Shown here: piece by piece, positions 49,999-61,284 of the stretch
Layout of the letters: each line of letters opens with the position of its first letter
Position numbering within the stretch: position 1 is the stretch's first letter
DNA from: an uncultured Chlorobiales bacterium
Lineage (GTDB): Bacteria > Bacteroidota > Chlorobiia > Chlorobiales > Chlorobiaceae
DNA length: 61,284 nucleotides
Assembly (NCBI GenBank): GCA_903929135.1
Contig: CAIYTH010000041.1
Location: 1 to 61,284 of the forward strand
Direction of reading: 5' to 3'
Translations under genes and position numbers: made by a program
The notes under the pieces: generated by a model
Told to the model about the DNA's origin: nothing
What the model saw: only the letters and a program-made list of their open reading frames with translations
The model's database searches: none

Positions 49999-50179
49999 GT
50001 CGTTGGTAGTGCCGTATATGTTGAATGCGTTCAGAATGGTTGCGACCGGGGTCCCATTCAGGAATCCCGAGAGTATTGCCTATCAAACAATATATAAAAT
50101 ATATCTTTATAGAACTTTAGAGTCAATCGGTCATTTAATCGGGGGAGAACCCTGAAAAACTGAATGGACGGATATCGAC

Positions 50180-51691
50180 ATGGCTGAACATGCGGATGTT
50201 GTTGTCATCGGCGCAGGCATCGGAGGCCTGACGACCGCAGCCCTGCTGCAGGAAAGGGGTTTTTCAACCCTGGTGCTGGAGAAAAACAGGTTTCCGGGCG
50301 GAAGCTGTTCGGCGTTCCGCAAAGGCGGGTATACGTTCGATGCGGGTGCTTCGGTCTTCTACGGGTTCAGCGATGACGACGCAAAAGGGACGCTCAACCT
50401 GCATTCGAGGATATTCAGGAAGCTCGGCGTCGAAGTGCCCACGATTCCCGATCCGGTGCAGATCCATTACCATATGCCCAATGGATTCGACGTTCCGGTG
50501 CATTACGACCAGAATCGCTTCCTTGAGTGCCTGTACCGGCGTTTCCCCCACGAAAAGGAGGGGATCATGCGTTTCTATATGGAGCTCGAGTCGGTCTATG
50601 ACATTCTGAGTTCGCTGCCGGCCGGTTCGCTCGAGGACATACTGCATCTTGCGGCCGTAGGTGCCCGGCAACCACTCAAGGCCATATCTCTCGGCATCAA
50701 GACCCTTTTTTCGATGGGCGGCGTTGCCCGCCGCAACATCCATGACGAGGAGCTTCTGCGGTTCATCGACCTCGAATCCTACGCATGGGCTGTTCAGGAT
50801 GCCCAGTCCACGCCTCTTGTGAATGCAGGCATCTGCCTGGCCGATCGCCATCATGGAGGTATCAACTATCCTGTCGGAGGTTCCGGGGCAATTCCCGCAG
50901 CACTGGTGAAGGGGATCGAAAAATTCGGCGGGAGGGTTCTTTTCGGTACCGAAGCCGAGCAGGTGATCATCGAGGACGGCCGGGCGGTCGGTGTCAGGCT
51001 TTCCGGAGGCGGCGAGGTGCTTGCACAGGCCGTGATCAGCAATGCCACCGTGTGGGATACCTTCGATAAGCTCGTGACGGATCAACGCCACAAAGTTCCG
51101 GAAGGGAAGTTCGTCAAGGCTCCGAGCTGGTTCCAGCTCTATCTCGGCGTGGACGCCTCGGTCATTCCGAAGGGTTTCAACGTCCACCACATCCTGGTCG
51201 AAGACTGGTCGCGTTACGATGAACTCGGGGGCACAATCTATTTCTCAGCACCCACGGTGCTCGACCCTTCGCTGGCGCCCCCCGGCAAGCATGCCGTGCA
51301 CCTGTTTGTGAGCGCCGAGACCTCGCAGTGGGAGAGCTATGACCGTCAGAGCCCCGAGTACCGCAGCAAAAAGGATGAGTATGCCCGAACCCTCATCTCT
51401 CGCACCGAACGGATCCTGCCCGGCCTTTCCGATGCGGTCGAGCTCATGGTCACCGCTACGCCTCAGACCCACGAACGTTACCTCAACAGGCTCGACGGAT
51501 CATACGGGCCGCTGCTTCATCCCGGCCAGAACGTCCTTCGCAAGCCGCAGAACCGGACGCCGGTCGAGAACCTGTATGCTGCCGGAGACAGTACCTTCCC
51601 CGGACAGGGCGTTATCGCCGTAACCTATTCCGGTGTCTCCTGCGCCTCCTACGTGGCCCGGCAGCTGGGCCGACCCCTCGACTACTTGTAA
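50180..51691 (+). CDS. crtH: Carotenoid isomerase CrtH-like (CrtISO family)
   Basis: FAD-dependent oxidoreductase of the phytoene desaturase/CrtISO family, 503 residues. The dinucleotide-binding motif VVVIGAGIGGLTTAALLQERGFSTLVLEKN opens the protein (seen in parts). RFPGGSCSAFRKGGYTFDAG and the C-terminal NLYAAGDSTFPGQGVIAVTYSGVSCA complete the signature. Green sulfur bacteria use CrtP, CrtQ and the cis-trans isomerase CrtH to reach all-trans lycopene; the GGSCSAF and SVFYGF pattern favours CrtH. Separation from CrtI-type desaturases is by pattern only. Followed by a TGGAC repeat. Confidence 0.85.
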   Translation: MAEHADVVVIGAGIGGLTTAALLQERGFSTLVLEKNRFPGGSCSAFRKGGYTFDAGASVFYGFSDDDAKGTLNLHSRIFRKLGVEVPTIPDPVQIHYHMPNGFDVPVHYDQNRFLECLYRRFPHEKEGIMRFYMELESVYDILSSLPAGSLEDILHLAAVGARQPLKAISLGIKTLFSMGGVARRNIHDEELLRFIDLESYAWAVQDAQSTPLVNAGICLADRHHGGINYPVGGSGAIPAALVKGIEKFGGRVLFGTEAEQVIIEDGRAVGVRLSGGGEVLAQAVISNATVWDTFDKLVTDQRHKVPEGKFVKAPSWFQLYLGVDASVIPKGFNVHHILVEDWSRYDELGGTIYFSAPTVLDPSLAPPGKHAVHLFVSAETSQWESYDRQSPEYRSKKDEYARTLISRTERILPGLSDAVELMVTATPQTHERYLNRLDGSYGPLLHPGQNVLRKPQNRTPVENLYAAGDSTFPGQGVIAVTYSGVSCASYVARQLGRPLDYL

Positions 51692-51697
51692 GAGGAG

Positions 51698-51735
51698 ATG
51701 GACGGCATGGACTGTATGGACGAAATGGACAAGAG
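51698..51735. repeat. ATGGACNNN repeat, copy C, single arm
   Basis: Four 9-base-spaced units (GATGGACGGCATGGACTG, then TATGGACGAAATGGAC) directly after the crtH stop. No complementary arm is present before the convergent ald stop, unlike copies A, B and D. Confidence 0.75.
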
Positions 51736-51765
51736 GGATTTCATGTTCCCTGATTATCCATTGTC

Positions 51766-52986
51766 TTAAGCAGTGGCCAGCAGCATGTCGATCTCCCGGT
51801 AGGGGAAATCGGTAAGCTCGGCCAGGATTTTCTTGGTGACGTACCCCTTGTAGATATAGGTGCCTTTCCTGAGGCTGTGGCTTTTCCAGAGGATGTCGGG
51901 GATGGTTTCGTGTGCGGTGAGCTTCTGCAGGAAGGGCAGCAGGGTGTTGGTGAGTGCGAACGAGGCCGTTTTGGCAACGGCGGAAGGAATGTTCGGCACA
52001 CAGTAATGCGTCACCCCGTGCTTGACGTAGATCGGGTTGGTGTGGGTCGTATGCCGGCTCGTCGCAAAACATGCCCCCTGGTCGATCGAGACGTCGATGA
52101 TGACCGAACCCTGTTTCATGGTTTTTACGACCTGCTCGCTTACCAGAGGCTTGCCGAGCTTCTGCTTCGGGCTGAGGGCGCCGATCATGACGTCGGAGAT
52201 CAGCGCCAGTTGCGCGATGTAATGGTCGTTGGCGATAGCCGTCACCAGATGCCTGTTGAAGAAGGCTTCGAAGCGCCTCAGGCGGTTGATCTCCTTGTCG
52301 AGGACCGTTACCTGGGCTCCGAGCCCGAGGGCGTCCTGGGCCGCGAAAAGGCCCACGGTGCCGGCTCCGATGATGGTGACATGCGCAGGCGGCACCCCGG
52401 CGATCCCGCCGAGCAGTATGCCGCTTCCACCGTACCCGGTTTCGAGATATTTGGCTGCGGTCTGGATGGCCAGAGATCCGGCGATTTCACTCAGTGTCCT
52501 GACGATCGGCAGCTCGCCGTCCCTGGTTTCGATGAACTCGAACCCGATGGCCGTAATGTTTTTTTCGATGAGCGTCCTGATCATCTGCCGGCTGACCGTA
52601 CCGAGATGCAACGCCGATATCAGCATCTGGCCGGGCTGGAACATGGAGAGTTCCTCCGTTTGCGGAGGGGATACCTTCACGATCACGTTTGCCTGCCGAT
52701 AAAGCTCATCGGGACAGCTCGCGACCAGGGCTCCGGCATCCGAGTAGTTTTCGTCCGAGAAATTGCAGAATGTTCCGGCACCAGATTCGACGATGACCCG
52801 GACGCCCTGTTCAACCAGGATCTGGACTCCGGCCGGCGACAGTGCCACCCGGCGTTCGTCTTGCGCTCTCTCCCTGGGCATGGCGATGGAGACGTTCATC
52901 GTCTTTTCAGGCTTGAGCAGCCAGCGTTCGAGAGTCTTGACCCCAAGCTCGAATTCAATAGTTCCAAAGTCGGAAGGGTAGCCCAT
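51766..52986 (-). CDS. ald: Alanine dehydrogenase
   Basis: NAD-dependent alanine dehydrogenase, 406 residues, interconverting alanine with pyruvate and ammonia. Core: IAMPRERAQDERRVALSPAGVQILV, then VESGAG, MLISALHLG, the Rossmann VTIIGAGTVGLFAAQDALGLGAQVTVLD, and VPNIPSAVAKTASFALTN. An N-terminal extension of about 30 residues (MGYPSDFGTIEFELGVKTLERWL) resembles that of Bacteroidetes-type enzymes, so the longer start is kept. NAD(P) transhydrogenase alpha subunits are relatives but the PNIPSAVAKTAS stretch favours Ald. Confidence 0.9.
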   Translation of the reverse strand: MGYPSDFGTIEFELGVKTLERWLLKPEKTMNVSIAMPRERAQDERRVALSPAGVQILVEQGVRVIVESGAGTFCNFSDENYSDAGALVASCPDELYRQANVIVKVSPPQTEELSMFQPGQMLISALHLGTVSRQMIRTLIEKNITAIGFEFIETRDGELPIVRTLSEIAGSLAIQTAAKYLETGYGGSGILLGGIAGVPPAHVTIIGAGTVGLFAAQDALGLGAQVTVLDKEINRLRRFEAFFNRHLVTAIANDHYIAQLALISDVMIGALSPKQKLGKPLVSEQVVKTMKQGSVIIDVSIDQGACFATSRHTTHTNPIYVKHGVTHYCVPNIPSAVAKTASFALTNTLLPFLQKLTAHETIPDILWKSHSLRKGTYIYKGYVTKKILAELTDFPYREIDMLLATA

Positions 52987-53111
52987 CGTGGTTTCAGTTC
53001 AACTGGATTTCTGCAAACTAGCTTTCCGGCTGATGCTTCCGGATTGAAAATAGGGATGCATGGAAGAAGATTGCAACCTGCCGTCGTTTCCGGCAGGTTG
53101 CACGACAGCAT

Positions 53112-53792
53112 TCAGTGCTTCGCCGTAATGGTGACCCGCTCTATGGTCGCTTTCGGAGCGCTTTTTCCCGCGCAGATCGAGCCGGGCAGGCTCAGTACGC
53201 CGCCGGTGACAGAGCAGATTGCTCCGGAAGCGGCATCGAACACTCCCTTCGCCGTTCCACCGACCATGTTGATAGGTCCCAGCAGGAACGAGAAGTTTTC
53301 CGTGAAGGTGTTGATGGCCAGCAGGGATGCAGGGCCGAGTCCCCCGGCGATCTTGCCGAGCGAATCTATAGGGCTGAGCGTCCCGTTCTGGACCCTGGAT
53401 ACTGCGTTTGCAATACCTGAAGGAAGTTTGTTCACCACGTTGTAACCGATCGTCTGGGCATAGGTGATGAATCCCGGCACGTTCAGTCCAAGTACGATCC
53501 GCCTCAGGTTTTCAGGTCTCGTCAGGACCCTGATGGTTCCCTCCTTGACGATGGCCGTCTGGCAGGCGAGACGCCCGCCCTCCTGGAGCAGCTTGTCCGA
53601 GATGAACGCTTTTTCCACAGTGCCGGGGGGCGAAAGGAGTTCGGCGCCTTCGCGCACATACACGAAGCAGCTCTGGCAAAGTCCGTTTCCTCCGCAGATA
53701 TAGCCGATGTGGGCTTTGTTGTGCTGCGCTGTGGAGAGAAGCCTGTCACCGACCTGGGCTTCGCAAGGCCTGTCGTTGATGTAGATGATCAT
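53112..53792 (-). CDS. csmJ: Chlorosome envelope [2Fe-2S] protein (CsmJ-like)
   Basis: 226-residue protein. The N-terminal ferredoxin domain (1-100) has adrenodoxin-type Cys spacing C33-x5-C39-x2-C42 and C77 (GYICGGNGLCQSC, RLACQT). The C-terminal part is hydrophobic and Gly/Ala-rich (residues 120-215), as in chlorosome envelope proteins that sit in the galactolipid monolayer. CsmI, CsmJ and CsmX share this design and are thought to pass electrons into the chlorosome to reduce quinone quenchers. CsmJ is preferred because of length; CsmI remains possible. Twenty-one extra upstream codons exist but the ferredoxin fold starts here. Confidence 0.8.
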   Translation of the reverse strand: MIIYINDRPCEAQVGDRLLSTAQHNKAHIGYICGGNGLCQSCFVYVREGAELLSPPGTVEKAFISDKLLQEGGRLACQTAIVKEGTIRVLTRPENLRRIVLGLNVPGFITYAQTIGYNVVNKLPSGIANAVSRVQNGTLSPIDSLGKIAGGLGPASLLAINTFTENFSFLLGPINMVGGTAKGVFDAASGAICSVTGGVLSLPGSICAGKSAPKATIERVTITAKH

Positions 53793-53930
53793 AACGGTGG
53801 AATTTTCATTGGCAAACGGTGAAGACGACTTCGGGCAACTCGTACTGATTGCCACAGTGTAGAATTAATATACACAAAAACCCGATGCGCTCAATTGCGG
53901 AGGGGTGTGGCGCAAGGGTGAGGCCAAACG

Positions 53931-53955
53931 AAAAAGCCGGAAACTCCGGCTTTTT
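53931..53955. terminator. Terminator between the two chlorosome genes
   Basis: AAAAAGCCGGA-aac-TCCGGCTTTTT, an 11-bp perfect stem that can work on both strands. On the minus strand it ends the transcript of the upstream CsmX-like gene. Confidence 0.92.
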
Positions 53956-53988
53956 CGAACTTTTCCTGATATGGTCCACGCGTCCTGC

Positions 53989-54657
53989 TCAGTTACAGGC
54001 AACCCCTTTTTCTCCATGAAGCTGAAGCACCTCTGGTGAAACCCTGACGGTGCCGCCGTTCGAGCAGCAGCTCGAAAGTTTCAGTGTCGTTCCAGCCGAT
54101 ACGTGGCCGTTTTCATGTTTGACGGGTTCGGGCGCGGATACCGCGGCACTGGACGTAAATACCGACTGCACCGCCTCGATCACCAGCTGTATGGCGTCGC
54201 CGATGCCGTTAAGCACATCGGTAACGAGCTGCCACAGGCTTACCTGATACATATCGCTGTCCCGGCTGGACTGGTATGCGATCGTATCGGTGAACTTCAC
54301 TGCTGCTTCCCGTCCCATCTTGGCCATGTAGGCAGGTATCTCTACGGGGTTGGAGAGGGTCATGCGCTTCACCTCCTCGACGGTGGTAAGGAGCGTGATC
54401 TTGCCTGGTTTGTCGATGTTGGTCTGACAGGCCATCCTCGTACCTTCACTGATGAGCGCGTCTGAAAGCATCGCCTTCTCGGCATTGGTCATCGGTGAAA
54501 GCAGCTCCTGTCCCTCGATCACCTTGACGTAGCAGGTCTGGCAAAGGGCGTTCCCGCCGCAGAAATAGCCGATGTGTCCGTGGTTGGCGCGCGCAACGTC
54601 GAGCAGTCTATCGCCGGTGTTTGCACTGCACTCCCGGTCGTTGATCTTGATGTTCAT
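53989..54657 (-). CDS. Chlorosome envelope [2Fe-2S] protein (CsmX/CsmI-like)
   Basis: 222 residues, paralogue of the neighbouring CsmJ-like protein. Cys33, Cys39, Cys42 and Cys77 are in identical positions (GYFCGGNALCQTC, RMACQT). The C-terminal half differs: an amphipathic middle (MYQVSLWQLVTDVLNGIGDAIQL) and a polar tail with a Cys pair (LSSCCSNGG). The similar N-termini and divergent membrane-facing halves indicate duplication. I cannot decide between CsmX and CsmI from memory. It is transcribed separately because a terminator follows its stop. Confidence 0.78.
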   Translation of the reverse strand: MNIKINDRECSANTGDRLLDVARANHGHIGYFCGGNALCQTCYVKVIEGQELLSPMTNAEKAMLSDALISEGTRMACQTNIDKPGKITLLTTVEEVKRMTLSNPVEIPAYMAKMGREAAVKFTDTIAYQSSRDSDMYQVSLWQLVTDVLNGIGDAIQLVIEAVQSVFTSSAAVSAPEPVKHENGHVSAGTTLKLSSCCSNGGTVRVSPEVLQLHGEKGVACN

Positions 54658-54758
54658 GATTGTAATGATTTAATGTTCAATGAGATATTTCTCATTGCAA
54701 TCATAACCATACCTATTCAGGAAAAAGTTGCAAAAAGAAGTGACAATTACAGAAGAGA

Positions 54759-54876
54759 AAATGGACAGCATGGACGGCATGGACGTAATGGACGTAATGG
54801 ACTGGAATCATTGGCTCTTACAGTGTCCATTGTGTCCATTACGTCCATTATTTCTTGGTCCAACCCGTCCATTTCT
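54759..54876. repeat. ATGGACNNN repeat, copy D, inverted clusters
   Basis: Left cluster 54760-54802 has five 9-base units (ATGGACAGCATGGACGGC, ATGGACGTAATGGACGTA, ATGGAC). Right cluster 54828-54875 is the complement (GTGTCCATTGTGTCCATTA, CGTCCATTA ... CGTCCATTT). It fills the gap between mfd and the CsmX-like gene, both on the minus strand, right after the mfd stop. Confidence 0.8.
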
Positions 54877-54881
54877 CTACC

Positions 54882-57800
54882 TCAATTGTCACTGCCCACT
54901 TCGATCTGCCTGAGAAGGGCGGCGTAGCGTTCGATGAGGGCAATCGGGTCCATGTCCGTTTCGGCTGGGTGGTTGAACACCAGCTTCATCTTCTTGTCAT
55001 GCTTGAACTGGGGGCGGTATGCCGGCAGGGAGTTTGTCTGAAGCGAAGCGATCAGGGAAGTGAAGAATCGGCTTTCATAGAACTCGCGGTCGTCGTCGGA
55101 GGGAAGGAAGATCGTGGTGGCGGAGGGCTGGATATCTATTTTTTCAAGTCCGATGGACGAGCCGAGGTTCTTGAGGCGGGCAAGCGCCAGCAGGTTCCGG
55201 ACTTCGTGCGGTATGGGCCCGAACCGGTCGGCCAGCTCGACGGCGAGATGGTCAAGGTCGGCGTCATTCGACGCTTTCGAGATCTTGTCGTAACAGGCGA
55301 AACGTTCCTGCGTGGCCGTCAGGTAGTAGTCCGGGATGAGTGCGTCGAAGAAGAACATGAGGTCGCATGGTTTCGACGGCTTCAGCGCCGCTTTTTCGCT
55401 GTCGCTGAAGATATGGCTGAATTCGGTCAGCTTCAGTTCGGCCACGGTCTCTTCGACCATCTTCTGGTAGAGGTCGAAACCTATTTCATGGATGAACCCG
55501 GACTGTTCGGCGCCGAGCAGGTTGCCCGCCCCCCTGATGTCAAGGTCCCTGAGGGCCACGTTGATGCCCGATCCGAGTTCCGTGAAGCTCTCGATGACCG
55601 CCAGCCGCTGCACGGCTTCGCGCTTCAGCGTGTGGAGCGGCGGCGTGATAAGGTAGCAGTACGCCTTGCGTTCGCTTCTTCCGACCCTTCCCCTGAGCTG
55701 GTAGAGGTCCGACAGGCCGAACATATCGGCCCGGTTGATGATGATCGTGTTGGCGTTGGAGATGTCGAGCCCCGAGCCGATGATCGAGGTGGAAATCAGC
55801 ACATCGAGCTCCTTCTGCATAAAATCCATCATCACGTTTTCGAGGTTTCGGGTAGGCATCTGCCCGTGCGCCGTGGCGATGCGTGCCCATGGCACAAGTT
55901 CCCTGAGCATCCGCTCGGTCTCCTCAAGGCTGGCGATCCGGTTGTGCAGGAAGGATACCTGCCCCTCGCGCTGGATCTCGCTTCGGATGGCCGATTGCAC
56001 CAGTCCCGAGTCGAACTCGGAGATGACCGTTTCGACCGGCTGGCGGTTCTTTGGCGGGGTGGAAACGATGGAGATGTCTCGTGCGCCCAGCATGGAGAAC
56101 TGCATGGTCCTCGGTATCGGCGTGGCCGACATCGTCAGGGTGTCGACGCCGGGGAAGTTCTGGCGGAGCTTCTCCTTCACCTCGACGCCGAAATGCTGCT
56201 CCTCGTCGATCACCAGCAGGCCGAGATCCTTGAACAAAACGTCGTTCGAGACGATCCGGTGCGTACCGATCACGATGTCTACGGCGCCGGCCGCAATCCG
56301 CTTGATGATCTCCTGCTGCTGTTTTTTCGGTACGAAACGGCTCAGTACGGCGATGTTCACGGGGAAGTTCTCGAACCTTTTCGCGAAAGACTCACCGTGC
56401 TGGTGCGCCAGGATGGTCGTCGGGGTGAGGATGGCTACCTGTTTTTTCGACTCGATCGCCTTGAAGGCGGCGCGCATGGCGATCTCGGTCTTTCCGAACC
56501 CGGCGTCGCCGCAGATGAGACGGTCCATCGGAGATGGGGACTGCATATCCTTCTTGACCTCCTCGATCGCCTTGAACTGGTCGGGGGTCTCCTCGAACAT
56601 GAACGACGCCTCGAACTCGCGCTGGAAAATCGAATCGGGGGTGAACGCGAAGCCCGGGGTCATCTTGCGCTCTGCATAGATGCGGATCAGCTTCGCAGCG
56701 ATGTCGCGGAGCTTCTTGCGGACCTTCTCCTTCTTCGCCGACCATTTCGCGCTGCCGAGCTTCGAAAGGTGGGGCAGCGAACCTTCCGAAGCGGTGTATT
56801 TCGAGAGCAGGTTGATGTTCTGCACGTTCACATAGAGCTGGTCGCCGTCTTCGTATTCGACGAGCACGCACTCCTGCTCAGAATTGCCGACCTGGATCGT
56901 CTCGAGCGATTTGAAGACGCCGATTCCGTAGTCCTCGTGTACCACGTAGTCGCCGACCTTCAGGCGCTGCAGGTCCTTGAGCGAGATGCCCTTGACTTTG
57001 CGCCGTCGGTGCGCCCGGTGCGTATGGAACTTGCCGAAGATATCGGATTCGGTGTAGAGGTCGAGCCCTCCGAACCTGAACCCGGTGTGCAGGTTCGCCG
57101 GAAGCCAGCCCACCTCGGTCTGGGCTGACGCATTTCCCGCATGGAGTTCTTCGTTCAGGAACTCGCTCAGCTCCTCGATCTCGCGTCGCGAACTGCAGGC
57201 GAACACCGTCGTCAGGTCGCTTCCGGCATCGAGCAGCAGGCGTTCTGCCAGCAGCCTGAAATTGCCCTGCAGCCTGTCCTGGGCGCCTGCCGTGAAGTCG
57301 ATGCCCCGCTTTTCGATGCGGTGCACAACGATATGCCTGAAGCCAGGCAGGGCAGCTTCCAGCTTCTCCCGGCAATCTTCGCCGGCGAGGACGGTGGCGT
57401 CGTCGACGATAACGATCGTCGATGGAGGGAGGAAATCGAGGATGCCGGCCGACTGAGCGGCGCCTTCTCCCTTTGCCGTCGTGAAGCTGCCGAACAGTTC
57501 GGCAGCATCCAGGGAACCCGAAGAGAGCTGGCTGTCGACGTCGAAGCCGCGGAGCGAGCTGACCGTATCCCCGAAGAACTCGATGCGAAGCGGCTCGGTT
57601 GCACCGTAGCCGAACACATCCACGATCGAGCCTCGGACTGAAAATTCGCCTTCGTCCTCCACGAATTCCCGTTTCTGGAACCCGTTCAATGAGAGAAAGG
57701 TCATGAGGGCATCGTAACCGGTCTCAGCGCCGCTCCGGACCGGAAACATCCGGCCGGCGGACTCATCGAGGCTGCAGACCGGGGTTTCGATGTCGTCGAA

Positions 57801-58178
57801 GCTCGCGATGACCATCACCGCCGAGCCCTGAGCCAGCTTGCCGAGCGTCGGGGAGAGCCCGTCATCGGTGCTGCAGACCGCTTTCGCCGGTATGAGCACC
57901 GGGAGGTCGTTGTCGTAGAGCTCGATGTATTCCGGGCCGCAGAAAAGGACCACCGGTGAAGAGAAGTCATGGAAAAGCTGCGCTGCGAGAACGGCGGCGA
58001 GCGAACCCCGGAGACCAGATACGGCGATCCTGTCGCGCCGGTCTCCGTTGGTTCCTGCGGAAAGCGCTTCGTGTACGGCGATGTAGGGAGCGGATGACGC
58101 GAGGGTTTCCTGGAGAAATGAAACCGGTCTTTTGACGATGCTTGCGAACTGCCGGGCAGTATCGTTGGATGGGCTCAT
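54882..58178 (-). CDS. mfd: Transcription-repair coupling factor
   Basis: 1098-residue Mfd, which removes stalled RNA polymerase and recruits UvrA. In order: UvrB-like N-terminal region (to about 350), RNA polymerase-interacting domain with [20 protein letters not shown] and YEDGDQLYV (about 430-520), translocase motifs [24 protein letters not shown] and [11 protein letters not shown], then [16 protein letters not shown] and [17 protein letters not shown], and the TRCF C-terminal domain. The ATG at MSPSND is chosen; the open frame goes 18 codons further to a TTG. It ends against a TGGAC repeat. Confidence 0.97.
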
Positions 58179-58360
58179 GGAGACGGGATAAAAAACTGAT
58201 CCTTGTTTCAGGCTGATGCTCGATAACCTCAATATAACAAAGCCGCGATATTACCATCGGCTACCGCTGGCAGGACACCGAAGGGTCATCGAATCGGATA
58301 GGAGCAAGTGTTCAGGGGGCTCTCGAGGCAGAAGGGCAAACGCTCCCGCCTCATGGCGGC

Positions 58361-59611
58361 TCAGTCGAGCCGAGGCTTGATGCCCTTGATATGGTGGAAA
58401 GAGACGACGCCCAGCAACTGTTCGTTTTCCTCGGTGACAGGAATCGCCCTGAACGAATACCTCGAGAAGAACTCGACGGCGTCATGGAGCGTGTCGTCAG
58501 GACCGAGGGTGATCAGGTTGTCGGTCATGATGTCGAAAAGCTGCTGCTCTGGTTCGGCGTTGAGCAGGTCACGCAGGTCGACGACTCCCTGCAGGATGCC
58601 GGCGTCGTCCACCACGTACACATACATGATGACGTCCATGTTGGCCGCGATGTCATGGTAGTGGTTGATGATCTCCTTGACCCTCGTGCCGGACGGCCGC
58701 CTGATGATGCTCTGCGTCACGTAGAGCATGATGTTCTCGTCGTCCTGTTCGATGATCTGCTGGACCTTCGCCTTGCTCTCCTGGTCCACCAGCTCGATGA
58801 GTTCGTCGGCGTCGGAAGATGGCAGCGCCGAGAGGATGTCCGCCGCCTTGGCAGGGCTCATCTCGTTGAGCAGTTCTGCAGCCTTGTCCTTCTGCATCGA
58901 TCCGATCAGCTCACGCTGAATCCTCGGCTCCACCTCTTCGAGCGTGTCGGAAGCCAGTTCCGGGTCGAGCGCGTTGAAGACGGCCATCCGCTGGTTCCTG
59001 TCGAGCTCCTCCAGGATGTCCGCGAGGTCGACCGGGTGGATATCGCTGATGTTCTCCTTGAGAATGTTGAGCTTGACGTTACCCTTGAAGCTGTCGATGG
59101 TTTCCGGCAGGGACTGGACGTACACCCATGAGATCGACGAGTCTTCGGTATAGCGGGCCAGGAAATCGGCGAGCTTGGTCATGCCCATCCTGCGCAGGAT
59201 GCGGAACCGGTTGAAATCAACCTCGCTGGCGTACAGGCGGTCGTTCTGGTAGATCAGCTTGACATCGTAGACCACCTCCACCTCATGGTCCTCCATGTCG
59301 AGGATCTTCTTGTCGAGGATGTAGTCCTTCAGGAAGATATAGCTCGCCTCGGGATCGAGCTTGTACTCCTCGGCGTCGGCGATGTCAGAAACGATTTCGG
59401 TGTTCGAAATCAGGGAGATTCTCTCCCACGGCAACAGCAGGGGGGGCTCTCCGTAAGGGCGATGAACGACCAGGTGCGTCACCTCCGGGACCTTCCCGGT
59501 GTGTTCCTGGATGACCAGGTCCTTGAGCTTGCCGATCCTGGTCGAGGTCAGGTAAACACGACGGCCGATGAGTTCGCTGAGATAGAATTCCTGTTCGAGT
59601 ATGGCAACCAT
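58361..59611 (-). CDS. MgtE N-domain/CBS protein without a membrane domain
   Basis: 416-residue cytoplasmic protein. Residues about 8-160 carry PRC-barrel-like segments (LIGRRVYLTSTRIGKLKDLVI, and a similar run near 110-140). Residues 185-290 are an MgtE N-terminal superhelix (DLADILEELDRNQRMAVFNAL, KDKAAELLNEMSPAKAADILSALP). Residues 298-415 form two CBS motifs (IIRRPSGTRVKEIINHYHD; DNLITLGPDDTLHDAVEFFSRYSFRAIPV). In MgtE channels these domains sense Mg2+ and gate an attached pore; here no TM helices exist. It ends the operon that begins with an NRAMP-fold transporter, so a regulatory subunit role is inferred. Confidence 0.85.
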   Translation of the reverse strand: MVAILEQEFYLSELIGRRVYLTSTRIGKLKDLVIQEHTGKVPEVTHLVVHRPYGEPPLLLPWERISLISNTEIVSDIADAEEYKLDPEASYIFLKDYILDKKILDMEDHEVEVVYDVKLIYQNDRLYASEVDFNRFRILRRMGMTKLADFLARYTEDSSISWVYVQSLPETIDSFKGNVKLNILKENISDIHPVDLADILEELDRNQRMAVFNALDPELASDTLEEVEPRIQRELIGSMQKDKAAELLNEMSPAKAADILSALPSSDADELIELVDQESKAKVQQIIEQDDENIMLYVTQSIIRRPSGTRVKEIINHYHDIAANMDVIMYVYVVDDAGILQGVVDLRDLLNAEPEQQLFDIMTDNLITLGPDDTLHDAVEFFSRYSFRAIPVTEENEQLLGVVSFHHIKGIKPRLD

Positions 59612-59634
59612 GACTCTCTCCTGTATCCGGTTTC

Positions 59635-59814
59635 TTATTTGCCTGCCTGGAGGACCGTGATGAATTTGTAAAGAAGCAGCACGACCAGCACCAGCAGGTA
59701 GATCCTCAGGCCGGTGAGTGAAAACTTGATGAGCGGCGACATCTCGACCTTGGGCTTCTCGTAGCGGGCGTTGATTTCGCGGATTTTGTCGATAAACTGC
59801 CTGATGACCTTCAT
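59635..59814 (-). CDS. 59-residue single-helix membrane protein
   Basis: Short gene between the NRAMP-like gene and the MgtE-domain gene. It reads MKVIRQFIDKIREINARYEK, then a polar Pro/Glu segment, then one TM helix (FSLTGLRIYLLVLVVLLLY), ending KFITVLQAGK. GAGGAG lies about seven bases before ATG, 18 bases after the transporter stop, and the next gene starts 23 bases after its own stop. Tight spacing and a good ribosome site support a real gene. It could be a small accessory subunit of the transporter; family not recognised. Confidence 0.8.
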   Translation of the reverse strand: MKVIRQFIDKIREINARYEKPKVEMSPLIKFSLTGLRIYLLVLVVLLLYKFITVLQAGK

Positions 59815-59832
59815 GTTCTTGCTCCTCGCAGA

Positions 59833-61101
59833 TTACTTGAGCAGGTTCGGGAAAAGGGCGGTGACTCCGTACATCGTCGACAGGATGATGATGCCGACCA
59901 CGATACCGCCGGTGATCAGGTTCTGGAGACGCGTATTGGTATACTCGCCCATCGTTTTCTTGTCGTTCAGCAGCAGGATCAGGAAGACGAGCGCCGCTGG
60001 AAGAAGTGTGACGGCAACCACCTGCACGAACAGGGTTATCAGGACCAGGGGAGCTCCGGGAATCAGCGGCACGAGGCCTGCGGTGATCAGGGTCAGGAAA
60101 TAGCTCGCATAGAACCAGGGAGCCTGCTTGACGTTGGTGTTGAGCGAGTGGGCCCAGCCGAAGATCTCACCGAACGCCCACGAGCTTGCAAGCGAGATGC
60201 AGATCGCGCCGAGCAGGCCGGCGTCGAAAAGCCCTATGGCCAGGAGTGCCCCGGTGTAGTGGTTCATCTTCATCAGCATCTTTGCCGCCGTGGCGGCATC
60301 GTCGATCGGCACCCCTTTCAGGAGGGTGCCTGTGACCACCACGATGAAGATGGCGACGGCCACCGTAATGATGGCGCCGAAGAGCGTGTCCGCCTTGCCC
60401 ATCTTGATGTCTTTCTCCTGCAACCCCTTGTCGACCACCGAGCTTTGCTGGAAGAACAGCATCCATGGAGCGATCGTGGTGCCGATGTTCGCCATCAGGA
60501 GGAAGAAGAGCTCGTTGGTCAGCCCCCCGGGAAGGTTGGGGATCAGCCCCTTGCCGACGATTTCGGTGATCGAAGGGTTGACCATGAAGGCAGCCGGTAC
60601 GTAGACGAGGTTGAGCAGGCAGAATCCGAGGGCGATTTTCTCCCAGGTCCAGTAGCGTCCGTTCAGCACGATGATGCCCATGAGTCCGATGACGCCGGCC
60701 ACGGTCAGCCAGGCAGGCACTCCGAAGATCTTCATGGCCGAGGTCATGCCGACGAACTCGGTGACCAGCGTCAGCCAGTCGACGATCATGAGATCGATGA
60801 GCGAGAACCAGCCCCAGAATGCGCCGAAACTTTCGAAAATCGCCTCGGCGTGTCCGCGCTTCGTCACGGCTCCGAGCCTTACGGTCATCTCCTGGACGTA
60901 GTAGGCGATCGGGATGAGGAGCAGCAGGAACCAGATGAGGTTGTAGCCGTACTGGGCGCCGGTGGCCGCATAGGTGGTTATTCCTCCCGCATCGTTGTCC
61001 GCAATCATCACGACGAGGCCGGGACCGGCAATCGCCAGATACATCCTGGTCGATTTCCAGACCTTTTTCGTGCGGTAATAGAGCGTGGAGAAGAAATCCA
61101 T
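59833..61101 (-). CDS. NRAMP-fold metal transporter, probable Mg2+-type (NRMT-like)
   Basis: 422-residue transporter with about eleven TM helices and NRAMP-type family features. The TM1 metal motif, normally D-P-G-N, reads D35-N-D-A-G-G. The TM6 motif, normally M-P-H-N, reads A211-P-W-M, so the Met that selects transition metals is Ala. From the literature I recall that NRAMP-related Mg2+ transporters lack this Met, and that replacing it in a bacterial NRAMP broadens transport to Mg2+ and Ca2+. The next genes encode a small TM protein and an MgtE Mg2+-sensor domain, which agrees. Mg2+ specificity is inferred; Mn2+/Fe2+ is not excluded. Confidence 0.85.
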   Translation of the reverse strand: MDFFSTLYYRTKKVWKSTRMYLAIAGPGLVVMIADNDAGGITTYAATGAQYGYNLIWFLLLLIPIAYYVQEMTVRLGAVTKRGHAEAIFESFGAFWGWFSLIDLMIVDWLTLVTEFVGMTSAMKIFGVPAWLTVAGVIGLMGIIVLNGRYWTWEKIALGFCLLNLVYVPAAFMVNPSITEIVGKGLIPNLPGGLTNELFFLLMANIGTTIAPWMLFFQQSSVVDKGLQEKDIKMGKADTLFGAIITVAVAIFIVVVTGTLLKGVPIDDAATAAKMLMKMNHYTGALLAIGLFDAGLLGAICISLASSWAFGEIFGWAHSLNTNVKQAPWFYASYFLTLITAGLVPLIPGAPLVLITLFVQVVAVTLLPAALVFLILLLNDKKTMGEYTNTRLQNLITGGIVVGIIILSTMYGVTALFPNLLK

Positions 61102-61284
61102 ATCCGGACAGGCTGAGCGTTGAAGGAAGATAACCCTGTATGTGGACCGGATCAGAAACTGGATGCGTCGATATTCCTGTCAGGCGGCTCCCGTACTGCT
61201 GGTGCCAGGCGGGCTTATGGGGTGCTTGGCCGCGGAAAAACTCCTTTCCTAACCCATGGTTTGCAAGTTTAAGGCTTTACGTCC

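Follow-up and report, generated by a model that had tools for sequence, protein, structure and literature searches.

A conserved one-helix membrane protein encoded beside, and in some lineages fused to, a subclade of NRMT-type NRAMP-related permeases

The window analysed here, a stretch of 61,284 nucleotides from an uncultured Chlorobiales bacterium (contig CAIYTH010000041.1), carries on its minus strand three tightly packed genes, which encode an NRAMP-related permease of the NRMT type, a single-helix membrane protein of 59 residues and a soluble, MgtE-like protein (the sensor). Our main finding is the conserved partnership of the 59-residue protein with one distinct subclade of NRMT-type permeases; this part of the work looks new, and is a stronger finding than the pairing of permease and sensor. 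The latter idea, that of an NRAMP-type Mg2+ transporter whose MgtE-like domain is a separate protein, was central to an initial annotation of the window and had already been published: in the portion consulted, Shin et al. 2014 (PMC4072509) describe the NrmT Mg2+ transporters, most of which lie near a gene for a homologue of the cytosolic domain of MgtE, and suggest feedback. A one-helix partner of NRMT is not described in the portions of the literature searched, which included PMC4072509, PMC9606685 and PMC12873925, with supplementary figures outside the scope of the search. NRAMP-related groups besides the NRMT-like and G-motif 3 groups are presented in the consulted portion of PMC12873925 as entirely uncharacterised.

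Results

Linkage of the small protein to the permease

As the initial annotation had it, the three open reading frames (ORFs) lie in close succession, in the order permease, 59-residue protein and soluble protein; the gaps between them measure 18 and 23 nt. They encode a permease of 422 residues (59833..61101), the small protein (59635..59814) and a sensor of 416 residues (58361..59611), all on the minus strand.

Of 577 loci from a genome scan with the permease profile, the best 80 were named; they come from many phyla of bacteria and archaea and, being the best, lean towards the window's own subclade. The small protein was sought with a profile built from trimmed rows and with a second, seed profile made from unfused proteins only. 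It lies beside or within the permease at 76 of the 80 loci, and the four loci lacking it (L146, L161, L164 and L179) are all cut by contig ends. Included in the 76 are the fused loci L181 and L182, whose E values are 0.05 with the main profile and, with the seed profile, 7e-4 and 9e-3. The 150 permease records used here include six loci twice (144 distinct), and the linkage, residue and profile counts lean slightly on the repeats. Three layouts occur: permease-small-sensor, permease-sensor-small, and permease-small without a nearby sensor.

Matches to the small protein were also located across whole genomes. Among 296 Bacteroidota, 34 of 36 matches lie at such permeases, and the other two are the weakest, at 22 and 21 bits versus at least 53 for the rest; six of these genomes have only a permease of 38-42% identity, and show no small-protein match. 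Twenty-six genomes of other phyla gave 28 matches in 25 genomes, the miss being G337, which holds the weakly matching fused L182; the four of these 28 places that were fetched (L249-L251 and L312) sit at permeases. All 10 matches among 299 Pseudomonadota are at permeases. Conversely, all 12 Pseudomonadota permeases above 330 bits, a line set after the scores were seen, have the small protein, two of them recognised only on closer look (L298, E 3e-5; L299, fused, E 0.09), and no small protein was found at the next permease (L304, 301 bits) or at the seven lower ones fetched.

The control loci of Chlorobiaceae, 11 other NRAMP and 9 MgtE loci, gave no small-protein match up to E 1. Permeases of the group that contains the solved Mg2+ transporter EleNRMT have a sensor gene, often upstream, without the small protein (five Bacteroidota loci, L106-L110, and 27 of the 30 best loci in a search of the phylum Actinobacteria). 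No sensor match at E <= 1e-15 was obtained in 7 of the 26 genomes carrying permease and small protein, whose assemblies may be incomplete, and the small protein thus probably serves the permease.

Fusion and topology

The small protein is fused at the permease C-terminus in Actinobacteria and in some Pseudomonadota (three loci: L289, L291, L299). The Actinobacteria permeases are longer by 87-129 residues, and in L175 the extension adds a hydrophobic helix 12, which a linker joins to the small-protein domain. Of 27 fused records, 24 (23 distinct loci) have a C-terminal domain that the unfused-only profile matches. A model of the L175 fusion has a mean predicted local distance difference test score (pLDDT) of 91.8 and a predicted template modelling score (pTM) of 0.90, and its nearest fold in the PDB is EleNRMT (7qia). 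Because the added helix follows helix 12, it would start inside. The free small protein has seven positive and four negative charges in its first 26 residues and two positive charges in its last 11; these charges weakly favour an N-terminus inside, which is the probable orientation.

Sequence and constraint of the small protein

The 59-residue protein has one hydrophobic segment. It matched no Pfam or NCBIfam family, and a check of 30 relatives yielded nothing beyond weak, scattered hits in Pfam (best E 0.035). Among 43 Chlorobiaceae sequences, the median pairwise ratio of nonsynonymous to synonymous substitution rates (dN/dS) of its gene is 0.11 (630 of 903 pairs with dS < 1.5); the corresponding medians are 0.030 for the permease (43 sequences, 584 of 903 pairs within the same bound) and 0.046 for the sensor (40 sequences, 296 of 780 pairs). 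Purifying selection and conservation together rule out a chance ORF.

The small protein has Arg37-Ile38-Tyr39 at 59698..59706 (minus strand), with Arg in 96 and Tyr in 104 of 105 other records. The small protein of L298 (Pseudomonadota) has lost the Arg and kept the Tyr of this helix motif (AWYVV), which suggests that the Tyr may matter more. An N-terminal segment, KIREIN..Y, is conserved in the permease-small-sensor group, and in the permease-sensor-small group the protein mostly begins at the core, without this segment.

A possible partner for Arg37 is permease Asp103, in the first half of transmembrane helix 3 (TM3; 60793..60795, minus strand). Where the small protein is present, 104 of 106 permease records (the window counted) have Asp here; where it is absent, none of 42 has an acidic residue, a contrast that is confounded with clade. 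Thirty permease positions separate the clades with and without the small protein (L105, L146, L161 and L179 dropped). A salt bridge between Arg37 and Asp103 is plausible, and the case for it is weak, the covariation being one event confounded with phylogeny.

The permease and its place in the NRAMP family

The permease belongs to Pfam family PF01566 (Nramp, 252 bits). Its closest solved relative is EleNRMT (227 bits, E 3.7e-66), and the top Mn2+ MntH chain reaches 60 bits. The nearest NCBI models carry Mn2+/Fe2+ transport names, and the NCBIfam MntH model scores 96.4 bits, below its cut-off of 430; a Mn2+/Fe2+ label would indeed mislead, as the initial annotation warned. It was also right that the canonical Mn/Fe Nramp motifs DPGN and MPH are both missing. 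TM1 has DNDAGG (60982..60999, minus strand), in which DAGG replaces DPGN, and TM6 has GTTIAPW (60463..60483, minus strand), in which Ala replaces the Met of MPH. These are the DxxG and TxxA/T halves of the metal-site motif given for NRMT in the consulted part of PMC8806188 (DxxG-TxxA/T). The further claim that loss of the TM6 Met lets NRAMP proteins accept Mg2+ is not supported by published work: as reported in the part consulted of Ramanadane 2022 (PMC8806188), EcoDMT did not use Mg2+ either as the Met mutant or as the triple mutant.

In a quick permease tree of 76 rows, with the contig-cut L146, L161 and L179 left out of the tree count, the NRMT-type permeases form two groups, that of EleNRMT and that of the window. 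In this tree, the kind of check that the initial annotation proposed, the DPGN rows stand apart and EleNRMT falls in the other group. The small protein occurs at loci of the window's group and not at EleNRMT-group loci, a distribution that one change suffices to explain (contig-cut rows excluded). The stems of the two groups have supports of 93 and 92, and the deep branching is not firm, since the outgroup rows do not all fall on one side and long branches come together. L105, with DTDAGS and neither partner, lies at the base of the window's group. Family, motif and place in the tree mark the permease as NRMT-type, and it would work as a LeuT-fold carrier; its predicted cargo is taken up below.

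Permeases that share 63-78% identity with that of the window turn up under the record names Gallionella, Rhodoferax, Rhodopila, Magnetococcales and methanogens (L118, L119, L122, L123, L130, L139), a distribution that suggests horizontal transfer between phyla. The window's genome holds a second NRAMP-related permease of a different group (L195, G000:C14:78527-79759), with DDDPSG in TM1 and no small-protein or sensor match nearby.

The soluble sensor

As described initially, the third protein has an MgtE_N domain (58739..59041; 87.6 bits) and a pair of CBS stretches (58388..58732), with no hydrophobic segment and no MgtE pore. It also has an N-terminal PRC-barrel domain (59387..59596; 32.7 bits), which the initial annotation did not mention, and a second beta-rich module (59129..59308), a candidate further PRC-barrel. 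TIGR00400 scores 112.2 bits, below its cut-off of 232.75. In the sensor model (pLDDT 84.7, pTM 0.49), beta modules at residues 5-75 and 101-160 are followed by a floppy stretch at 166-184, the MgtE_N helices and the CBS pair; the top fold matches are MgtE cytosolic domains, and the protein stops before the MgtE plug helix. At some NRMT loci from the Actinobacteria search (L225, L226, L228-L232, L235, L237-L239, L242-L245), a separate protein of about 190-244 residues resembles the initial, PRC-type portion of the sensor alone, and the PRC and MgtE/CBS modules can thus be encoded apart.

The sensor was compared with MgtE residue by residue, the roles of the MgtE residues being taken from the consulted parts of PMC5882242 and PMC5529423. 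The window's sensor has Ala and His at Mg4 (D91/D247), Ser and Gly at Mg5 (D226/D250), and Asp at both Mg6 (D95) and Mg7 (E59); Tyr330, Arg347, Asp348 and Phe387 stand at ATP-site positions of the CBS pair. Thirty Chlorobia sensors keep none of D91, D226 and D250, and none keeps N203; Y170, R187 and F227 are present in all 30, and D188 in four (Glu in the others). At 32 other permease-small-sensor loci the counts are D91 1, D226 6, D250 2, D247 27, Y170 31, R187 8 (mostly Lys otherwise) and F227 30; at 15 permease-sensor-small loci, D91, D226 and D250 0 each, D247, Y170 and R187 15 each, and F227 4. The 28 sensors without a small protein have D91 28, D226 8, D250 20, D247 28, Y170 26, R187 24 and F227 2, and nine full-length MgtEs of Chlorobia have D91, D226, D247, D250 and R187 in all nine, and D95, Y170 and F227 in none. 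MgtE-like gating is doubtful, because trio sensors have lost D91, D226 and D250 while several ATP-site residues stay. Mg2+ sensing in the manner of MgtE, proposed in the initial annotation, is accordingly not supported, although positions 59 and 95 are acidic in the window.

Distribution of the trio and of MgtE in Chlorobiaceae

Co-occurrence of the three genes, a check set by the initial annotation, shows a conserved unit: in the 86 Chlorobiaceae genomes, the genes for permease, small protein and sensor are found together in 43 and are all absent from 42, and the remaining one, G052, has a sensor fragment alone, at a contig edge. In G071 the permease is cut by a contig end, and G034 holds two full copies of the trio (L111 on G034:C8, and G034:C7). 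The high Mg demand of bacteriochlorophyll, invoked initially, does not provide a simple account, given that half of the Chlorobiaceae genomes searched lack the full trio and that relatives occur in Gallionella, methanogens and others.

Of the 86 genomes, 71 have a separate match of the full-length MgtE type; those lacking one are 13 of the 43 with the trio (G032, G033, G036, G037, G060, G065, G070, G071, G072, G074, G075, G077, G080) and 2 of the 43 others (Fisher p 0.003, kinship not corrected). Such a pattern would be expected if the trio can stand in for a separate MgtE.

Upstream elements and neighbours

An M-box, which is a Mg2+ riboswitch, lies upstream of the permease at 6 of 32 subclade loci (L137, L142, L163, L166, L167, L190), which cover all three layouts, and at 3 of 20 loci of the other NRMT-type group, many of which have short flanks. 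No Mn riboswitch reached threshold in these scans. At the Alicyclobacillus locus (L163:4076-7435), two NRAMP-type genes flank the M-box, and the second of them has the small protein. In the window, a riboswitch scan of 50000-61284 gave two sub-threshold microRNA matches only, and a simple scan found no sigma-70-like promoter at the operon. Purine runs resembling ribosome sites precede the start codons of the second and third genes, and an mfd-like gene (TRCF and helicase domains) lies downstream of the trio.

Discussion

The explanation that we consider reasonably probable, as judged from sequence comparisons, is that the window encodes an NRMT-type permease for Mg2+ (perhaps Mn2+), a constitutive one-helix subunit, and a cytosolic PRC/MgtE_N/CBS regulator that reports adenine nucleotide. 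The permease would import Mg2+, and perhaps Mn2+ too, as a LeuT-fold carrier. The 59-residue protein would be packed against the transporter, probably with its N-terminus inside; a role as permease subunit is suggested by the near-universal linkage, the C-terminal fusion, the absence at control loci and the purifying selection. The soluble protein would regulate from the cytosolic side, and what it reports would be adenine nucleotide (Mg-ATP, perhaps) and not free Mg2+. We are least sure of this final step, which is proposed because the MgtE gating residues are degraded and several nucleotide-site residues remain. Mg2+ is the likely cargo of the subclade, since M-boxes precede subclade operons and MgtE is missing more often with the trio; in Chlorobia, the argument for Mg2+ is built on kinship and the MgtE pattern.

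A number of observations weigh against this explanation. With regard to cargo, neither an M-box (RF00380) nor another riboswitch was found in 50000-61284, where the permease has only 183 upstream bases, and no M-box was found in 18 Chlorobiaceae records or in L103 and L104. All 13 MgtE-less trio genomes belong to one genus, and five are less than 90% complete. EleNRMT, the sole characterised NRMT in the tree, sits in the sister group that lacks the small protein. According to the consulted part of PMC4072509, the NrmT of A. capsulatum, which is encoded beside an MgtE fragment, rescued Mn2+ transport better than Mg2+ transport, and the fragment gave it no better Mg2+ rescue. The proposed salt bridge is affected by the loss of Arg37 in 9 of 106 pairs, Asp103 being lost in two of those nine, which are sister rows. 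As to the regulator, 26 of the 30 Chlorobia sensors retain D247 (the window's does not), and, as in the window, position 59 is acidic in all 30 and position 95 in 13; among the 32 other permease-small-sensor loci, R187 is mostly replaced and D226 persists in some. Thirteen sensors of the fused lineage show the reverse pattern, with D91 and D247 in 13, D250 in two (otherwise Glu) and the ATP residues in none. We infer that the sensor of the window's lineage shifted from Mg2+ towards nucleotide and that the fused lineage went another way.

Two key questions for the alternatives are: (i) what the small protein does; and (ii) which ion is carried. It is possible, if rather unlikely, that a Mg2+ permease is closed by a separate, Mg2+-binding MgtE-type subunit, for which the small protein serves as a docking linker, much as the initial annotation proposed. 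Such a scheme would suit the presence of a sensor gene near 45 of the 76 permeases with the small protein, the conserved KIREIN..Y segment of the permease-small-sensor group and the acidic residues at 59 and 95 of the window's sensor, and feedback was also speculated on in the part consulted of Shin 2014 (PMC4072509). Against it stand the loss of D91, D226 and D250 in the window and its near kin, the end of the sensor before the plug helix, and the general lack of the N-terminal segment in the permease-sensor-small group. A linker as the general role of the small protein is ruled out by the carrier genomes without a sensor match, incomplete as their assemblies may be, and fits poorly with fusion to the permease in other lineages. 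A transient role for the small protein, as a regulator or quality-control factor of the permease rather than a structural subunit, also seems improbable to us. Small hydrophobic proteins can act in this way, as MgtR is said to do for MgtC in the source consulted, and the small protein is less conserved than its neighbours; its occurrence as a permease fusion in Actinobacteria and Pseudomonadota, however, makes a constant 1:1 partner likelier than a transient regulator.

On the second question, the permease might be mainly a Mn2+ or broad divalent importer, with its partners serving that role. The A. capsulatum NrmT rescued the Mn2+ transport mutant best (PMC4072509) and EleNRMT also carries Mn2+ (PMC8806188), as far as the consulted portions relate. 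The M-boxes before subclade operons with no Mn riboswitch at threshold, the more frequent lack of an MgtE match in trio genomes, and the NRMT-type metal site speak for Mg2+ instead, and we give a mainly Mn2+ role little credence.

Our preferred explanation, a Mg2+ permease with a one-helix subunit and a nucleotide-reporting regulator, can be extended beyond the window. We tentatively suggest that a large bacterial and archaeal subclade of NRAMP-type Mg2+ importers could consist of carriers with two subunits, one of them an obligate single helix, governed in lineages such as Chlorobia by a soluble, MgtE-derived adenine-nucleotide sensor; this broader proposal is put forward with less confidence than that for the window. 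If true, one branch of Mg2+ importers would possess a subunit of a single helix, conserved and in some lineages fused to the permease, and the MgtE-derived nucleotide sensor would link Mg2+ uptake to energy state. The small protein would also serve to flag, from sequence, permeases that probably import Mg2+ and whose closest models at NCBI say Mn2+/Fe2+.

Finally, the system can be set beside known ones. It resembles NRMT/NrmT (EleNRMT, 7qia; C. acetobutylicum Ca_c0685) in its Nramp fold, DxxG-TxxA motif, adjacent MgtE-domain gene and, in some lineages, M-box, and differs in its own tree group, the order permease-small-sensor, the one-helix partner and TM3 Asp103. Its sensor resembles the cytosolic N/CBS domain of MgtE in having MgtE_N, a CBS pair and several ATP-site residues; unlike MgtE, it has no pore or plug helix, has lost D91, D226 and D250, and has gained a PRC-barrel. 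NRAMPs have been studied as single-chain carriers. One-helix partners of larger membrane proteins include MAP17 of SGLT1, itself a LeuT-fold carrier, CydX of cytochrome bd and AcrZ of AcrB, and it is in role only that the 59-residue protein would be like them.

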